DNA from: Devosia litorisediminis
Lineage (GTDB): Bacteria; Pseudomonadota; Alphaproteobacteria; Rhizobiales; Devosiaceae
NCBI RefSeq assembly: GCF_018334155.1
Contig: NZ_JAGXTP010000001.1
Coordinates: 124,001 to 188,000 of the forward strand
DNA: 64,000 nucleotides
Reading direction: 5' to 3'
Shown here: positions 1 to 53,816 of the stretch, piece after piece
Layout: every line of letters starts with the position of its first letter
Position numbering within the stretch: position 1 is the first letter of the stretch
The notes under the pieces: model-generated
Seen by the model: the letters and a program-made list of their open reading frames with translations, nothing else
Databases searched by the model: none
What the model was told of the DNA's origin: nothing
Program-made: the position numbers and the translations under genes

Positions 1-100
1 GATGGCCGTAGTCGGGATTGCCGGCGACAAGTTCACAGATAAAGCAGGGGCCGTGCTGGCTGCGTTGCACGTGGGCGTCCAGATCAAACGGCAGCCGCAT
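1..100 (-). CDS. HIT-family protein, N-terminal fragment
   Basis: The first 33 codons of a gene that runs off the left edge. It starts with ATG at 100, two bases after the TAG stop of the response regulator, so the two are probably one transcript and translationally coupled. The fragment contains the pattern CFICELVAGNPDYGH, which resembles the cysteine-bearing N-terminal segment found in many bacterial HIT (histidine triad) nucleotide hydrolases and transferases. The catalytic HxHxH triad would lie outside the window, so neither catalytic competence nor the subfamily can be judged. A family-level guess only. Confidence 0.6.
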   Translation of the reverse strand, partial: MRLPFDLDAHVQRSQHGPCFICELVAGNPDYGH

Positions 101-102
101 GG

Positions 103-609
103 CTAGCTGGCTTCGCGCTTCTGGGCTTCGGTACGCCGTTCATTCTCTCCGATATCGACAGTCTTGCGGCGACGGTCGGGGCCGGTATAGGCCTCAGCTT
201 CAATGAAGCCGCGCGGATTGGTCTCGATGCTGGTCAGACGGGTCTGAAGATGGTTGGCAGCAAATGGCTTGCGCAAGAATTCGGTGACGCCGGCGTCGCG
301 GGCGTCGGCGATGCGTTTGGCGTCGGGTGCTGCACTCATCATGATGATGGGCACCAGACGGTTCTGGCAATCGGAGCAGGCACGCAGCTTTTTGGTGAAG
401 GCAACGCCGTCCATGCCATTGAGGTCATCATCAATGATCAACACGTCAAACGCGCGGCGGCGCAGTTCAATCATGGCGCGGTTGGCGTCGTAGCTCTCGC
501 GGATATCCCTGCGTCCCAAGCTGCGCAACATCACCGCAATCAGCGATGCCATGTGGGGAGAGTGATCGGCGATCAACACACCGTGCTTGGTAATTTCCTC
601 AGTGGCCAT
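103..609 (-). CDS. Single-domain response regulator (CheY-like receiver)
   Basis: A 168-residue receiver-domain protein with no DNA-binding output domain. The acidic pocket is at residues 15 and 60-62 (strand ending IIDDDLNGMDG, with Asp60 aligned to the phosphoacceptor), and the conserved lysine is in FLRKPF near residue 111. The C-terminal tail carries GPDRRRK, a basic motif common in alphaproteobacterial single-domain regulators. An in-frame TTG lies three codons upstream at 618, but ATG 609 has AAGGG about ten bases ahead and is preferred. Such proteins usually pass phosphate or bind a partner; the partner is not visible here. Downstream is a HIT-family gene, two bases away. Confidence 0.85.
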   Translation of the reverse strand: MATEEITKHGVLIADHSPHMASLIAVMLRSLGRRDIRESYDANRAMIELRRRAFDVLIIDDDLNGMDGVAFTKKLRACSDCQNRLVPIIMMSAAPDAKRIADARDAGVTEFLRKPFAANHLQTRLTSIETNPRGFIEAEAYTGPDRRRKTVDIGENERRTEAQKREAS

Positions 610-823
610 GGTACGCAAACCCTTACTTCGCAGGCCTGCATCTTAGCAGGGCTTTGCATATGAGCGGTTAATCGGGTTCATTATATGCAAGCCATAGCTT
701 TTCACGACATTTGCGTGAAAACTCCGGCCAAGCCGCGTTGACAGGGTGGGGCATTTTCCCTATGTATGCCGCCAAGTTTCCGGGCGCCATGGCGCCCCTT
801 TTGTTTGACCAAGGAATCGTCCG

Positions 824-949
824 ATGAAGATCCGCAACTCGCTGAAGGCGCTGATGACTCGCCACCGCGCGAACAAGCTCGTCCGCCGTCGCGGCCGGGT
901 TTATATAATCAACAAGGTAGACAAGCGCTTCAAGGCCCGTCAGGGCTAA
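824..949 (+). CDS. rpmJ: 50S ribosomal protein L36
   Basis: A 41-residue, strongly basic protein (starts [10 protein letters not shown], ends DKRFKARQG) of the longer 41-residue L36 type, which lacks the zinc-binding cysteines of the 37-residue form. L36 sits in the large subunit. An AAGGAA element lies about eight bases before ATG 824. The gene is monocistronic: it is followed within 35 bases by a strong intrinsic terminator. A longer ORF on the opposite strand over the same bases is a composition shadow. Confidence 0.95.
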
Positions 950-979
950 GCTAAAGCTTGATACTGAAGATTGACTGAC

Positions 980-1005
980 AAAGCCCGCGAAAGCGGGCTT
1001 TGTTG
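980..1005 (+). terminator. Intrinsic terminator of rpmJ
   Basis: AAAGCCCGC, a GAAA tetraloop-like turn, then GCGGGCTTT followed by T-rich sequence: a perfect 9-bp stem 30 bases after the rpmJ stop. Confidence 0.85.
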
Positions 1006-1268
1006 CGTTTGGGGTTGGTCCGGGCCCTTCCGGCGCGTTGCCTGTGGGCGGTCCGCGCGCAATACCGATGCGGGCCATCATTCACGTACCCCACCGTCCC
1101 CAAACCCCCGCGTTTAAAGCTCAATGCGCAGGTGAGGGATGGTGCAAAGGTTTACGTCGTTTGGCATAATTATACCTGTGCATCAGTACGTTACGTTATC
1201 TATTGTCTGGTTTTATCCAGCCGTTTTTTATTTGCGCCATTTTTTTCGCGTTCGCCGCGAGGTAATTT
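1006..1268. other. Non-coding spacer rpmJ to SRPBCC gene
   Basis: With the terminator, 319 bases separate rpmJ from the next gene. The left half is GC-rich; the right half (from about 1150) is markedly AT-richer, with TTTACG near 1151, a TAATTAT element near 1167 and a GTACGTTACGTTA run near 1187, so it probably holds the promoter of the downstream gene. No ORF, tRNA or clear operator was found. Confidence 0.5.
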
Positions 1269-1670
1269 ATGCTCAAGGCCCGAACACTAACCGTGCTGAT
1301 CAATCGACCGATCCAGGATGTGTATGACTTTCTGGTGGAGCCCGCCAATCTGGCACGTTGGACGCTGGTGGGCCCCGGACAGGCAGAGCCCGAAGAAGGG
1401 CCACTGGTGTGGTCGTTTGACGGGCCGCACGGGCTGGTGCTGGTCCGCTTTACGCCACGCAATGCGTTTTTTGTGCTCGACTACTCGCTGCAGTCGGGAC
1501 CACATGTGTGGCAGTCCTCAAGCGTGCGGTTGATCCGCAATGGCAATGGATGCGTGTTGACCCATACTTCGGTGCAGCAGCCATTGGTGTCCGACGCGGT
1601 CTTCGCCTCCGAGGAGGAGTGGCTGTATTCGGACCTGCTGGTGCTCAAGACCCTAATGGAAACGAAATAG
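1269..1670 (+). CDS. SRPBCC (START/polyketide-cyclase-like) protein
   Basis: A 133-residue protein whose N-terminus (TLTVLINRPIQDVYDFLVEP, then NLARWT) is the typical first strand and helix of the SRPBCC helix-grip fold, which binds hydrophobic ligands in a deep cavity. No catalytic residues can be assigned. It is soluble, with no signal peptide. It converges on pyruvate kinase, with a shared bidirectional terminator between them. The ligand is unknown. Confidence 0.75.
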   Translation: MLKARTLTVLINRPIQDVYDFLVEPANLARWTLVGPGQAEPEEGPLVWSFDGPHGLVLVRFTPRNAFFVLDYSLQSGPHVWQSSSVRLIRNGNGCVLTHTSVQQPLVSDAVFASEEEWLYSDLLVLKTLMETK

Positions 1671-1687
1671 GCGATCAGCCAAAGAAA

Positions 1688-1715
1688 AACCCGCGGACGT
1701 GCCGCGGGTTCTTTT
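1688..1715. terminator. Bidirectional terminator, SRPBCC gene / pyk
   Basis: AACCCGCGG and CCGCGGGTT form a 9-bp stem. A T-run follows on the plus strand (TTCTTTT), and the complementary strand also ends in a T-rich run (TTTTTCTTT), so it can stop both converging genes. Confidence 0.85.
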
Positions 1716-1736
1716 ATCGGGTCATGCCTGGCGGGC

Positions 1737-3173
1737 TTAGCTGGAGCCGGCGCCGTCCTGGCGGACGAAGGCGATGCGGAGCATGTTGGTGGCGCCTGGT
1801 GTGCCCAGCGGAATGCCGGCCGTGATGGCGATACGATCACCGGGACGGGCAAAGCCTTCCTGATAGGCGATGACACAGGCGCGATCGACCATGTCTTCCA
1901 GGCTCACTGCATCTTCGGTCTGCACGCAATGGACGCCCCAGACCACCGACATGCGGCGGATGGTGCGCTGGTTGGGCGAGAGCACGATAATGGGCTTGGA
2001 GGGCCGCTCGCGGGCGGCACGGATGCCGGTCGAGCCGGAGGCGGTATAGGTAACGATGGCGGCCAGATCGAGCGTTTCGGCAACCTGGCGGGTCGCCGCC
2101 GAGATGGCGTCGGCCGCAGTGGCTTCAGGTTCGGTCTGGGCAGCGCGGATAATGCCGCGATAGTTGGCGTCGCCTTCGACGGCCACGGCCACCTTGTTCA
2201 TGGTGGCGACGGCCTCAACCGGATACTGGCCAGAAGCCGACTCGGCCGAGAGCATGATGGCGTCAGCGCCTTCAAACACGGCGATGGAGACGTCCGAGAC
2301 CTCGGCGCGGGTCGGGACCGGCGCGGTGATCATGGATTCAAGCATCTGGGTGGCGACGACCACTGGCTTGCCGTAGCGGCGGGCCATGCGGATCATGCGC
2401 TTCTGCAGGCCGGGGACCTGCTCAAGCGGCAGCTCGACGCCCAGATCGCCACGCGCCACCATGATGGCGTCGCACAGCTTGATGATCTCTTCGAGGCGCT
2501 CGATAGCCTGCGGTTTTTCGATTTTGGCCATGACGCCTGCGCGACCCTGAACGATCTTGCGCACATCGATGATGTCTTCGGGGCGCTGCACGAAGGACAG
2601 GGCAATCCAGTCGGCATCGGCAGCCAGGCCGGCGACCAGATCGGCGTGGTCCTTTTCGGTCAGTGCGCCGGTGGGCAGCAGCGTATCGGGGAGCGATACG
2701 CCCTTCTTGTCGCTAAGCTTGCCGCCATAGACCACTTCGGTCTCGATGGCGCCATTGCCCACCTTGGTGGCCTTGAGCTGCAGCTTGCCGTCATCGAGCA
2801 GCAGGCGGTCGCCTACCGAGACGCTTTCGATGATTTCAGGATGGGGCAGGTAAACGCGCTCGGTGGTGCCGGGCGTGTCATCGCTGTCCAGGGTGAATTT
2901 CTGCCCGGCGGCCAGTTCGACAGCGCCATCGGCAAATTTCCAGACGCGCAGCTTGGGACCCTGGAGGTCGACCAGAATGCCCAATGGATGGTTGAGGCGC
3001 TTTTCGACATTGCGAATGCGCTCGACCGTGGTGTTGAGCACTTCGTGGCTGGCGTGGCTCATATTGATGCGGAACACGTCCGCGCCGGCCTTGGCCAGTT
3101 CCTCGATCATCTTTTCCTCGTGGCTGGCTGGCCCGAGGGTGGCGACGATCTTTGCGCGTCTCATGCGTCTCAT
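1737..3173 (-). CDS. pyk: Pyruvate kinase
   Basis: A 478-residue cytoplasmic enzyme converting phosphoenolpyruvate and ADP to pyruvate and ATP, the last step of glycolysis; the length is normal. Visible landmarks are KIVATLGPAS at the N-terminus, RINMSHAS, the active-site stretch VMAKIEKPQAIERLEEI with its catalytic lysine, ARGDLGVE, and ATQMLESM. The C-terminal allosteric domain is present (TASGSTGIRAARERP). The ATG at 3173 overlaps the stop of the upstream DUF1036 gene (ATGA), so the two are co-transcribed and coupled; a second ATG at 3164 is a possible alternative start. Confidence 0.97.
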   Translation of the reverse strand: MRRMRRAKIVATLGPASHEEKMIEELAKAGADVFRINMSHASHEVLNTTVERIRNVEKRLNHPLGILVDLQGPKLRVWKFADGAVELAAGQKFTLDSDDTPGTTERVYLPHPEIIESVSVGDRLLLDDGKLQLKATKVGNGAIETEVVYGGKLSDKKGVSLPDTLLPTGALTEKDHADLVAGLAADADWIALSFVQRPEDIIDVRKIVQGRAGVMAKIEKPQAIERLEEIIKLCDAIMVARGDLGVELPLEQVPGLQKRMIRMARRYGKPVVVATQMLESMITAPVPTRAEVSDVSIAVFEGADAIMLSAESASGQYPVEAVATMNKVAVAVEGDANYRGIIRAAQTEPEATAADAISAATRQVAETLDLAAIVTYTASGSTGIRAARERPSKPIIVLSPNQRTIRRMSVVWGVHCVQTEDAVSLEDMVDRACVIAYQEGFARPGDRIAITAGIPLGTPGATNMLRIAFVRQDGAGSS

Positions 3174-14657: not shown

Positions 14658-14672
14658 TTAAGAGGGGATTAA
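14658..14672 (-). promoter_or_regulatory. CtrA box upstream of the TacA-like gene
   Basis: TTAA-GAGGGGA-TTAA is an exact match to the CtrA consensus TTAA-N7-TTAA, in the intergenic region 70-84 bases upstream of the minus-strand regulator. The -10 element downstream of it is not obvious. Confidence 0.6.
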
Positions 14673-32623: not shown

Positions 32624-33349
32624 TTAGTTGTCGGTGTCGTTAGGGATCGACTTGAGCTTGGAGAACACCGAGTCCGCATCGAAATCGTCCTGCGCTTCGG
32701 CGGGACGGTGATCGTTGGCAGCAAACTCGCCATCTTCGTCGCTGTGACCGCGGGCGCCGGAACGGGCCAGCGCTTCCTCGGCCGTCATCAGCATGGTGCC
32801 TTCGGCCAATTCGTCAACGCCCGGACCACCCTTGGAGGCGCGACGCACTTCAAGATCGAGATCGATCTGGCTGCACAGGCCCAGTGTTACGGGGTCCATG
32901 GCGGCGAGGTTGGCGGCGTTCCAGTGGGTGGATTCACGGACCGAGTCGATGGTCGACTTGGTGGTGCCTACCAGACGCATGATCTGGGCGTCCTTGAGTT
33001 CGGGATGATTGCGCACCAGCCACTTGATGGCGTTGGGGCGTTCATTGCGACGCGAAATCGGCGTGTAGCGTGGGCCCTTGCGCTTGGCAGCGGCAACGCG
33101 AACCTTGGGCTCGCTCAGCTTGAGGCGATAGGCTGGATCGCCCTCGGCCTTTTCGATTTCTTCGCGGGTCAGCTGACCGTTCTGGATCGGGTTGGCACCC
33201 ATAATGCCGCCGGCGACATCGCCATCGGCAATGCCCTGAACTTCAAGTGGGTGAAGCGTGCAGAAGGCGGCGATCTGGTCGAACGACAGCGCAGTGTTGT
33301 CAACGAGCCAAACGGCGGTCGCCTTGGGCATCAACAGTGGCTGGGTCAT
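32624..33349 (-). CDS. TrcR-type cell-cycle transcriptional regulator (DUF1013)
   Basis: 241 residues from ATG 33349 with GGAGAG ahead. The DUF1013 family features are the MPKATAVWLVDNTALSFDQIAAFC start, VQGIADGDVAGGI, the RRNERPNAIKWLVRNHPELKDAQIMRLVGTTKSTIDSVR helix-turn-helix, and WNAANLAAMDPVTLGLC. The family is named TrcR in current annotation and is confined to alphaproteobacteria. The C-terminal ~70 residues are acidic and of low complexity. Targets unknown. Confidence 0.88.
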   Translation of the reverse strand: MTQPLLMPKATAVWLVDNTALSFDQIAAFCTLHPLEVQGIADGDVAGGIMGANPIQNGQLTREEIEKAEGDPAYRLKLSEPKVRVAAAKRKGPRYTPISRRNERPNAIKWLVRNHPELKDAQIMRLVGTTKSTIDSVRESTHWNAANLAAMDPVTLGLCSQIDLDLEVRRASKGGPGVDELAEGTMLMTAEEALARSGARGHSDEDGEFAANDHRPAEAQDDFDADSVFSKLKSIPNDTDN

Positions 33350-33492
33350 GATAAATCTCTCCTGCAGGCGCGGCCGGTTTTCCTCCGGACCGCTCCGCCT
33401 CTTTGCTTCGTGCTGAGGGGGAACATCGCCAATATATGGATTTATGGGCTGATCCGCAATGGCAATATGGGCTTTGCCCACTGGCTGATGGG

Positions 33493-34506: not shown

Positions 34507-34584
34507 GGACGCATGCTGAGCGAACTGGGCTTGCTCGGCAAGCCTGTCACGATAAGCTGAGCAATCGTAGTGCAGGAGGCCGCG

Positions 34585-34767
34585 ATGGACGAAGACGCAA
34601 TCAACACGCCCAAGACGCATGAGGTCGGCATGCCGATCGAGACGATGTCGGTTGAGGAACTGCAGGGGCGCATTAGCCTGCTGGAGAGCGAAATCGTTCG
34701 GCTACGGGTCGCCATCGAGGCGCGTGGTGAAACCCGTCAGGCGGCAGAGTCGATCTTCAAGTTCTAG
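34585..34767 (+). CDS. DUF1192 family protein
   Basis: 60 residues from ATG 34585 (GGAGG nine bases ahead). A short helical protein with the DUF1192 core MSVEELQGRISLLESEIVRLR, which is a predicted coiled coil, and a C-terminal SIFKF. Alphaproteobacteria-specific, function unknown. Confidence 0.88.
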   Translation: MDEDAINTPKTHEVGMPIETMSVEELQGRISLLESEIVRLRVAIEARGETRQAAESIFKF

Positions 34768-35099
34768 AGACTGAGATGCAGGGCAGGCTTGGATCGGGCC
34801 GCTGGTACGGGCCGTGGCTGCCCTGCGGCAGGCGTGCCGGGGGCTGGTTCGATTGGCGTTGATGCTGTTGGCGTCTGGGTGGGGTGACCGCCATCAGACT
34901 CATCAACAGACCAGTGGCGGCTCCGGGGGACAGGCTGGTCATGATCGATCTCCAAATCGGCAGGGACGTTGACGACAGCACAGCAGAGCCAGGCTGCACG
35001 CTATCGGAATCACCCGTTCATCTTCGATTCATCCAGTGCCTTCCGCGGCGCGCCAAGTGAACAGGCCGGGAAGCGACAGGGTTAAGAAATCGACTCCTG
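34768..35099. other. Non-coding part of the 593-base region between DUF1192 and DUF1465 genes
   Basis: From the DUF1192 stop to 35099 I see no convincing gene. A minus-strand ORF at 34757-34999 has a Pro/Gln-rich, shadow-like composition and overlaps the DUF1192 end. The sequence becomes AT-richer from about 35080, leading into the CtrA box. Confidence 0.5.
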
Positions 35100-35139
35100 T
35101 TAACGCGCAATTAACCGGTTCGCGCTAACCTCTCATTAT
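35100..35139 (+). promoter_or_regulatory. CtrA-dependent promoter (TTAA-N7-TTAACC, -10 CATTAT)
   Basis: TTAACGCGCAATTAACC at 35100-35116 is an exact CtrA box. Its second half (TTAACC, 35111-35116) stands exactly 17 bases before CATTAT (35134-35139), a plausible -10, so CtrA would bind over the -35 region as in known CtrA-activated promoters. Predicted start near 35146. Confidence 0.65.
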
Positions 35140-35145
35140 TCAGAT

Positions 35146-35230
35146 TGTTCTGGATTTTTCAGAGTGGTTTCTCCCTCTGTTTGACGCCTCCCTGTTAACT
35201 TCGAGAGCGGCTCACCCCGCTCTTTTTTCT
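35146..35230 (+). ncRNA. Candidate CtrA-regulated small RNA
   Basis: About 85 nt between the predicted promoter and a strong intrinsic terminator, with no ORF. It carries two C-rich, unpaired-looking motifs, TTTCTCCCTCTG (35168-35179) and GCCTCCCTG (35186-35194), which could pair with Shine-Dalgarno sequences, as in several alphaproteobacterial trans-acting sRNAs. The start is predicted from the -10, so the 5' end may shift by a few bases. Confidence 0.55.
35204..35230 (+). terminator. Intrinsic terminator of the candidate sRNA
   Basis: AGAGCGG (35204-35210) pairs with CCGCTCT (35217-35223) across a CTCACC loop, followed by TTTTTCTTTT. The nearest upstream same-strand gene ends 436 bases earlier. 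Confidence 0.85.
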
Positions 35231-35360
35231 TTTCTGGCGTCTGTTGCTCATCCTGTTGCCTTCGTCTTAAAGCTCCTTTCATGCTCATAGTGCCTGATAG
35301 GGCGACGCGTTGGGCTTATGCCCAAGGCGTGTGTGCGTGCGCGAGTGAGGAGACAGTCAA

Positions 35361-35879
35361 TTGGCAGATGCGAGTGAAACGGGATCAGCCATTGCGATTG
35401 GCCCACGGATCGTGGCCGCGGGCGGGTTCGACCTGCTCTACCGAGAAGGCATGTCACTGATCGAGGAAGTGGCGGGTTATCTTGATGGCGAAGGCCGCAA
35501 TGACAGCCGGATCCTGAGCCGCGAAGCTTCGTTTGTTTACGCAACGGAATCGATGCGCCTGACGACGCGGTTGATGCAGCTGGCCTCCTGGTTGCTTCTG
35601 CAGCGTGCGGTCAATGAGGGCGAGATCACCAAGGAAAACGCCCGCTCTGAAAAAGAGAAGGTGAAGTTCTCGGCGACACCGTCCGAGCGCGGTGGCCCCG
35701 GCTATGACCAATTGCCGGGCACGCTGCGCGACTACATCGACAAGGGTGACCGGCTGTTCGACCGGGTCATGCAGTTCGATACGCTGGAGCGCGGCAAGGT
35801 GAGCGAACTTGATCCGGGCACTGCGAATGGCATTGCCGACCAGTTGGCGCGGCTTAAAGCAGCGTTCGGGCGGGCCTGA
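35361..35879 (+). CDS. DUF1465 family protein
   Basis: 172 residues from TTG 35361, with GAGGAGA eight bases ahead. Helical and soluble: FDLLYREGMSLIEEVAGYLDG, EASFVYATESMRLTTRLMQLASWLLLQRA and the ARLKAAFGRA end are typical of DUF1465, a family restricted to alphaproteobacteria. Function unknown. It lies 130 bases after the sRNA terminator. The gene after it runs in the opposite direction. Confidence 0.87.
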   Translation: MADASETGSAIAIGPRIVAAGGFDLLYREGMSLIEEVAGYLDGEGRNDSRILSREASFVYATESMRLTTRLMQLASWLLLQRAVNEGEITKENARSEKEKVKFSATPSERGGPGYDQLPGTLRDYIDKGDRLFDRVMQFDTLERGKVSELDPGTANGIADQLARLKAAFGRA

Positions 35880-53631: not shown

Positions 53632-53637
53632 TGCATC

Positions 53638-53786
53638 GCTGCCCGGTACGTGTGGAAACCAATATCCTCGGGGCCTTATCGATCTTAAGGGAGCTGTCCC
53701 TGACCGGACCCGTGGGTCCGGACATACGGTGCCCACCTACGTAAAGTAGGTTCCGGGATCGCGTATCCCACGGCCAGGGTGGCACC
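53638..53786 (+). ncRNA. ssrS: 6S RNA
   Basis: Between zapA and the formyl-THF ligase gene, the standard proteobacterial position. The ends pair as a terminal stem: GCTGCCC (53638-53644) with GGGTGGC (53777-53783), and CGTGTGG with CCCACG further in. Inside are a perfect hairpin CCGGACC-CGTG-GGTCCGG (53704-53721) and CCTAC-GTAAA-GTAGG (53736-53750). This matches the rod with a central bubble that binds sigma70-RNA polymerase. No ORF. No T-run follows, so the 3' end is probably processed from a longer transcript with the downstream gene. Confidence 0.8.
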
Positions 53787-53816
53787 TGAATTCTAGAATA
53801 GGCTACGGCGCGGCGC

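Follow-up and report, generated by a model that had tools for sequence, protein, structure and literature searches.

What is transcribed from the 593-nt gap that separates a DUF1192 gene (stop at 34767) from a DUF1465 gene (TTG start at 35361) in Devosia litorisediminis? Both genes lie on the plus strand of the window, the 64,000-nt stretch of DNA analyzed here. We take DUF1465 to be the RcdA family, a name that agrees with the match obtained in the Caulobacter vibrioides control. CtrA is the master switch of the bacterial cell cycle, and the rcdA product aids its destruction. An earlier note, made from the letters of the window, had proposed a CtrA-activated small RNA in this gap. We report that the gap probably encodes a trans-acting RNA of ~92 nt that resembles BjrC1505, with a CtrA-activated promoter and a terminator of its own, a reading in which we have good confidence. 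The features of the locus are as follows.

34570..34767, plus strand: DUF1192 gene, 5' neighbor (Pfam, 65.8 bits)
35082..35086, plus strand: upstream CtrA-like half site TTAAG, 18 nt 5' of the box, from Devosia conservation
35092..35096, plus strand: GACTC, a GANTC (CcrM-type) methylation site directly 5' of the box, with a presumed role
35100..35114, plus strand: CtrA box TTAACGCGCAATTAA (TTAA-N7-TTAA), read directly, at a conserved position and inside the Rfam BjrC1505 match
35126..35131, plus strand: probable -10 element TAACCT, at a fixed offset of +26 from the box start
35138..35229, plus strand: BjrC1505-like small RNA, predicted transcript of ~92 nt, start placed to +/- 2 nt, with a predicted fold
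35138..35155, plus strand: hairpin 1, AUUCAGA-UUGU-UCUGGAU, from the fold, complete only with the corrected start
35160..35179, plus strand: hairpin 2, from the fold and the helix of relatives, with a predicted UUUCU loop in the window
35181..35198, plus strand: conserved core UUGACG-CCUCCC-UGUUAA, a predicted weak hairpin with CCUCCC in a 6-nt loop
35203..35228, plus strand: intrinsic terminator, from a terminator scan and arm-swap pairing
35267..35281, plus strand: second CtrA-like box TTAAAGCTCCTTTCA, one mismatch, between the terminator and rcdA
35300..35331, plus strand: counterpart of the promoter-like motif that other Devosia have ahead of rcdA (GGGATGACGC ... CCTAGCAT), degenerate in D. 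litorisediminis
35361..35879, plus strand: rcdA homologue (DUF1465, PF07323), 3' neighbor (Pfam, 175.8 bits)

The CtrA box by itself is suggestive

The perfect TTAA-N7-TTAAC box described in the earlier note is present on direct reading, with TTAACGCGCAATTAAC occupying 35100-35115. Its chance expectation, given there as about 0.1 TTAA-N7-TTAA in 64 kb, is close to the 0.09 that we computed, against two found in the window (14658 and 35100). The other perfect copy, at 14658-14672, reads TTAAGAGGGGATTAA. Genome-wide, TTAA-N7-TTAAC yields 29 strand hits (19 places) versus 9 strand hits for a reversed control, so the box alone, without conservation, is suggestive but not decisive. The argument that such a box is unlikely by chance therefore stands through conservation, and not through the motif count.

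Within Devosia the surroundings of the box are also shared. Between -30 and -8 relative to the box, 65 of 67 distinct Devosia sequences contain a TTAA[GC] half site, as do 12/146 of a set designated 'others' (which, for this and for the -10 count below, takes in six named Devosia records). GANTC is found at exactly -8 from the start of the box in 40 of the 67. A one-mismatch second box at +80..+100 of the core is found in 24 of the 31 Devosia loci, out of 70, that have enough flank; among the matches listed for named loci, a second box occupies this interval in 11/115.

Box and RNA keep their spacing across the order

We assembled 70 Devosia loci, window included, from 73 genomes with a DUF1465 match, leaving out three (G004, G052 and G072) whose matches were broken or at an edge. 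The box lies upstream of rcdA in all 70, perfect in 69 and with one mismatch in the other, 76-84 nt before the core. The core GACGCCTCC is present in 68 of these loci (67 perfect boxes and the one-mismatch box), while the remaining two carry the variant core GACCCCTCC behind perfect boxes. Loss of the box and terminator in close relatives had been named in the earlier note as one of the outcomes that would speak against it; the box is kept at 70/70 Devosia loci.

Searching with the 21-base core string alone returned at least 120 named stretches, 116 of them usable. Among the matches listed, a box with at most one mismatch lies at -92..-72 in 114 of the 116, versus 0/115 and 0/113 in windows at -152..-132 and -212..-192, and the boxes of the remaining two, L132 and L197, contain two mismatches each. 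(A previous count of named loci, in which 71 of 80 were used and 68 had the box, was later recounted with this stricter anchor.) The named Bradyrhizobium and Stappia loci among the matches listed mostly read TTTA-N7-TTAA, and many others are perfect. Sets chosen with RF02356 gave boxes with at most one mismatch in 30/30 loci of the order, 30/30 of family f42 and 19/21 of the class (21 of 26 class loci have the exact core), although selection with a model that includes the box favors loci that have one. In the same sets, the nearest upstream window holds a box in 0/30, 0/30 and 1/21 loci, windows further upstream in none, and downstream windows in 0 to 2 per set. The sets overlap in part. The spacing between box and RNA thus holds, at the level of sequence, across the order and partly beyond it. 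Family f42 is probably not Rhizobiaceae; Sinorhizobium probes found no close match in it, nor in g27, g65 and g122.

The -10 element and the start probably lie further upstream

The earlier note had taken CATTAT as the -10 element, 17 bases from the second half of the box. That spacing is true (CATTAT at 35134-35139 lies 17 nt past TTAACC at 35111-35116, on direct reading), but the homologous -10 is probably TAACCT, 8 nt upstream: counting from the start of the box, a TATAAT-like hexamer occupies offset +26 in 80 of the 147 'others' sequences, and Devosia has a conserved TAANNT there. A -10 at 35126-35131 therefore predicts a start at ~35138, which probably moves the 5' end ~8 nt upstream of the position first given, 35146. 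Folding favors the earlier start as well. RNA from 35137 reaches -28.4 kcal/mol (z -4.1; 0/200 shuffles as stable), versus z -2.1 from 35146 (6/200 shuffles as stable), and CATTAT as -10 would overlap hairpin 1. On both grounds CATTAT and its start were rejected.

The 5' base of the box would then lie at about -38 of the start, which fits the location of CtrA-activated boxes near -35 to -39. In Caulobacter, the full motif of the CtrA-activated promoter ctrA P2 begins at -39, and repressing CtrA sites lie near -14 (excerpts of PMC4287350). We consider direct control of the RNA by CtrA very likely.

A predicted RNA with maintained pairing

With the corrected start, the terminated candidate RNA of the earlier note stands, its length rising from ~85 to ~92 nt. 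The intrinsic terminator with its T-run is where it had been seen, at 35203-35228: GAGAGCGG-CTCACC-CCGCTCTT spans 35203-35224 and the T-run 35223-35228. It is the sole terminator-like site in 34760-35400; since shuffles average 0.9, the hit alone is not significant. Pairing provides further evidence. In an arm-swap test on 44 sequences (300 swaps), the terminator forms 301 of 308 pairs (swap mean 281, maximum 289) and hairpin 2 forms 253 of 264 (swap mean 240, maximum 247).

The helix homologous to hairpin 2 is 100% paired in alignment A2, made of 18 relatives (no Devosia) picked for similar hairpin length, which favors this helix, and it holds five two-sided cells in two pairs. None of 500 shuffles reaches its paired cells, two-sided cells or covariation score, while the number of pairs with two-sided changes (2/11) is equaled by 85/500 shuffles and that of further pair types by 300/500. 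Two-sided changes are absent from the core hairpin of these 18 relatives. RNAalifold on alignment A1 (37 of 39 reduced sequences; model R1) recovered no more than 3 pairs, since MAFFT aligns hairpin arms out of register when their lengths differ. The core is near-invariant in both alignments, and UUGACG-CCUCCC-UGUUAA is presumed to be the pairing site.

Both of the C-rich anti-Shine-Dalgarno-like motifs noted earlier are present, UCUCCCUC at 35170-35177 and CCUCCC at 35187-35192. The hairpin 2 loop reads CUCCUGU or similar in most relatives; in Devosia the hairpin is shifted (CAGAG/CUCUG) and its C-rich bases are largely paired, so that in the predicted fold only the CCUCCC of the core would be exposed.

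The RNA is a homologue of BjrC1505

A permissive Rfam search aligned positions 1-140 of the RF02356 model to 35092-35229 with 42.9 bits (E 8.9e-7 in 606 nt; 1.3e-6 in the whole genome). As this score is below the gathering score of 50 bits, a standard Rfam search misses the window RNA, and we term it a BjrC1505 homologue and not a formal member. The small RNA proposed in the earlier note thus gains a full-length covariance match, but it is not new in kind, being homologous by sequence to a family already catalogued as BjrC1505, an alphaproteobacterial sRNA. The BjrC series comes from Bradyrhizobium japonicum (excerpt of PMC7143759). The window RNA has the same core UGUUUGACGCCUCCCUGUUA, hairpin 2 and terminator, including the invariance of the core and the pairing of hairpin 2, and its neighborhood is that of over-threshold relatives, with DUF1465 downstream; it differs in that hairpins 1 and 2 are altered in Devosia. 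The fetched stretches of the top 30 order relatives contain DUF1465 (30/30), a QOR-type dehydrogenase (26/30) and L31 (21/30).

In the order, 245 of 297 genomes have an RF02356 match, which exceeds the cut-off in 211; the other 52 are unmatched at the sensitivity used, and 14 control genomes have no match. In a class sample the model matches 40 of 385 genomes; 4 of the 40 are from the host's order, its own genome included, and 16 of the 40 score over the cut-off. Caulobacter vibrioides has DUF1465 and no RF02356 match. Near the 5' end of the model, the Rfam consensus (aUUuACggccuAUUaac) is the CtrA box, and the model starts upstream of the start deduced here. Because the model appears to include the promoter with its CtrA box, we suspect that its 5' end is wrong.

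Relation to rcdA

rcdA lies downstream on the same strand at 30/30 top order loci (and at the 70 Devosia loci by construction), so its association with the RNA is old. The RNA nonetheless looks like a transcription unit separate from rcdA, because some lineages keep RNA and box without an adjacent rcdA. Genome G365 (98% complete) retains the RNA with a perfect box and has no DUF1465 match, as is also the case for DUF1465 in G888, among 30 hand-picked genomes. The RNA lies ~41 kb from DUF1465 in G405; in G443 and G550 the two are on different contigs, and the core was not found before DUF1465. The fetched stretches of ten class loci contain no rcdA that the Devosia protein detects by tblastn. 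Nine of these loci keep the box, perfect or with a single mismatch; at the tenth, L126, a one-mismatch box sits closer to the core. At one of the ten, L119 (G547), DUF1465 follows ~3.4 kb further on.

The genes after the RNA can be a Cys/Met PLP enzyme (L105, L109, L119) or a 3-hydroxyisobutyrate-type dehydrogenase (L113, L121). Loci L105-L107, L109, L113, L119 and L121 are outside the order and keep RNA and box with rcdA not adjacent; L105-L107 and L109 still have a QOR-type gene nearby.

Alternative readings

The box and the terminated RNA might instead be the leader of rcdA, with CtrA driving rcdA and the terminator acting as an attenuator that is sometimes read through. The constant same-strand position of rcdA in the order (30/30) would suit this, as would the presence of rcdA among CtrA-bound promoters in Caulobacter (excerpt of PMC4287350). 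In the Devosia alignment upstream of rcdA (68 loci aligned, 17 rows listed), the stretch from the terminator to rcdA contains TGAC (at least 97%) and, after it, a CCTAGCAT that is kept less well; this separate promoter motif is degenerate in D. litorisediminis, also in keeping with a leader, and for that reason there may be readthrough into rcdA in this genome. However, other Devosia do have the promoter-like motif past the terminator, and the box keeps a tight distance to the RNA (76-84 nt in Devosia), whereas the distance from the core to the rcdA match runs from 144 to 579 nt over the loci compared. The rule that the RNA is always upstream of rcdA, true in the window, fails across relatives (G365, G405, G443 and G550). 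Since RNA and box persist unlinked to rcdA in several lineages, we rejected the leader as the main reading and regard it as improbable.

CtrA can repress from a box, too. The RNA could then be an sRNA made constitutively or under stress, with CtrA only tuning it from a box of repressing or structural function. This would agree with data on Sm84 of Sinorhizobium meliloti, a possible homologue for which six array conditions with detection are listed and a sigma70 promoter is given (excerpts of PMC2573895). We think this unlikely: a box that begins at about -38 overlies the -35 region, an activating position in Caulobacter (excerpt of PMC4287350), and a non-systematic look at the box-anchored consensus brought no separate -35 hexamer to notice. 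Coincidence of a random TTAA-N7-TTAA with a random terminator has a negligible probability. About a third of the genome's boxes are expected from the reversed control (9 versus 29 strand hits) and the terminator hit alone lacks significance, but positional conservation across genus and order, together with pairing maintained by base changes, refutes chance for the unit of box, RNA and terminator. Coding for a small protein or a leader peptide is very improbable as well. As the earlier note had stated, no plausible gene lies between box and terminator; a 17-codon TTG frame does span the core in the window, but only 30 of 68 Devosia loci have a start in that frame, on which ground we rejected a coding function. 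Single-base differences in the box-core distance and hairpin 2 loops of differing size also shift the frame. A CtrA-type promoter driving a small RNA, as first proposed, remains the best reading, with the box kept at 70/70 Devosia loci and the spacing kept across the order.

A diverged version in Rhizobiaceae

Two genomes, G1214 and G1132, share 97% and 96% identity with positions 1-3000 of S. meliloti pSymB. Upstream of rcdA both carry a diverged version of the RNA, with a CUCCCUGUUUUACC core and a terminator, which at locus L341 scores 27.8 bits (E 0.07) with RF02356. A perfect box lies ~94 nt before this core and a second perfect box between terminator and rcdA. In Rhizobium/Sinorhizobium-type loci, the first box (at most one mismatch) is found in 15/16 and the second, perfect, in 16/16; the latter is at 1321-1335 in L341, and similarly placed in 15 further loci. 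Among 28 loci read, L361, from a 2.0 Mb genome, has neither core nor upstream box. L357 and L359, from Rhizobiaceae, have both boxes and the terminator before rcdA without the CCUCCC core; either the promoter has outlived the core there, or another RNA has replaced it.

ChIP-seq in S. meliloti located CtrA at the rcdA promoter region, and CtrA depletion was without effect on rcdA (excerpt of PMC4433202). That this signal comes from the box of the sRNA is a testable lead, and a lead rather than proof because either of the two boxes could give it. S. meliloti has a 100-nt intergenic sRNA, Sm84/SmelC671, defined by RNA-seq and located between two forward genes (excerpts of PMC2573895 and PMC2873474). 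In strain 1021 it occupies 2986421-2986520. Its order and strands relative to 6S, as far as the excerpts give them, are those of the rcdA-linked RNA of G1214 and G1132. It differs in its distance from 6S, which is 14.2 kb in strain 1021 and 12.5 kb for the RNA of L363 and L364 (a difference of ~1.75 kb), and in a Northern band of ~80 nt that is shorter than the length deduced here (excerpts of PMC2573895 and PMC2873474). Sm84 is possibly the S. meliloti homologue of the window RNA.

A possible mechanism and its place among known RNAs

In the mechanism that we propose, CtrA~P would bind the box (5' base at about -38 from the predicted start) and would recruit RNA polymerase in predivisional cells. 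The RNA would present an anti-Shine-Dalgarno loop (the CCUCCC of the core, joined in most relatives by CUCC in the loop of hairpin 2) that would cover the ribosome-binding sites of target mRNAs. Blocking of ribosome sites through this C-rich loop is plausible from the modeled fold. When we scanned the genome for longer stretches complementary to the core (RYRGGGRGGYGT), 8 sites came up, one of them the gene itself, and no site fell at a convincing start codon; the reversed-pattern control gave 3.

CtrA-linked ncRNAs are already known in Caulobacter, where six ncRNAs are among the promoters with a CtrA motif and a ChIP signal (excerpt of PMC4287350). One ncRNA that is presumably CtrA-activated, CcnA (CCNA_R0094), was compared by description: it is 182 nt long, versus ~92 nt here, and lies inside the replication origin with DnaA boxes (excerpts of PMC8959179). 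The length led us to reject identity with CcnA. EcpR1 (SmelC291) resembles the window RNA as a Hyphomicrobiales trans-sRNA tied to the cell cycle, but its neighbors are pleD/divK and rpmG and its promoter is of the sigma70 type with ppGpp influence (excerpts of PMC4414408). Its SL1 loop UCCGCCGCAUCU is absent from 35138-35230 on reading, and identity was rejected. The MmgR/suhB RNA (RF00519) likewise has CCUCCCU, and ACUU before the terminator; it differs in being under NtrC/AniA control (excerpt of PMC7143759), and at 22.0 bits against a gathering score of 41 it was also rejected. With the RNA family catalogued and such ncRNAs known, what appears to be new here is the CtrA promoter of the family, its place beside rcdA and the doubtful Rfam 5' end. 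In open-licence papers we found no literature linking BjrC1505 or RF02356 with CtrA, and no description of the CtrA box in the model or of the family's place beside rcdA.

More speculatively, and as an idea that may well prove wrong, the family could be a pan-Hyphomicrobiales sRNA of the CtrA regulon that feeds back on the cell cycle, made predivisionally and silencing S-phase or CtrA-pathway mRNAs through its CCUCCC loop; in S. meliloti it would be Sm84, and the source of at least part of the rcdA ChIP peak. Direct CtrA control of the RNA would in itself link the cell-cycle master regulator to post-transcriptional control, and would give the CtrA circuit of the whole order, nitrogen-fixing symbionts included, a dedicated RNA arm. 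It could also explain the puzzle of CtrA occupying S. meliloti rcdA without effect on rcdA (excerpt of PMC4433202).

Two other genes of the window may be mentioned. TrcR (PF06242; Pfam name, transcriptional cell cycle regulator) lies at 32627-33352 on the minus strand, ~1.7 kb 5' of the box, and is present also in stretches L056 and L059. A 6S RNA (RF00013, 63.1 bits) at 53633-53789 on the plus strand is the window's only Rfam match over the gathering score.
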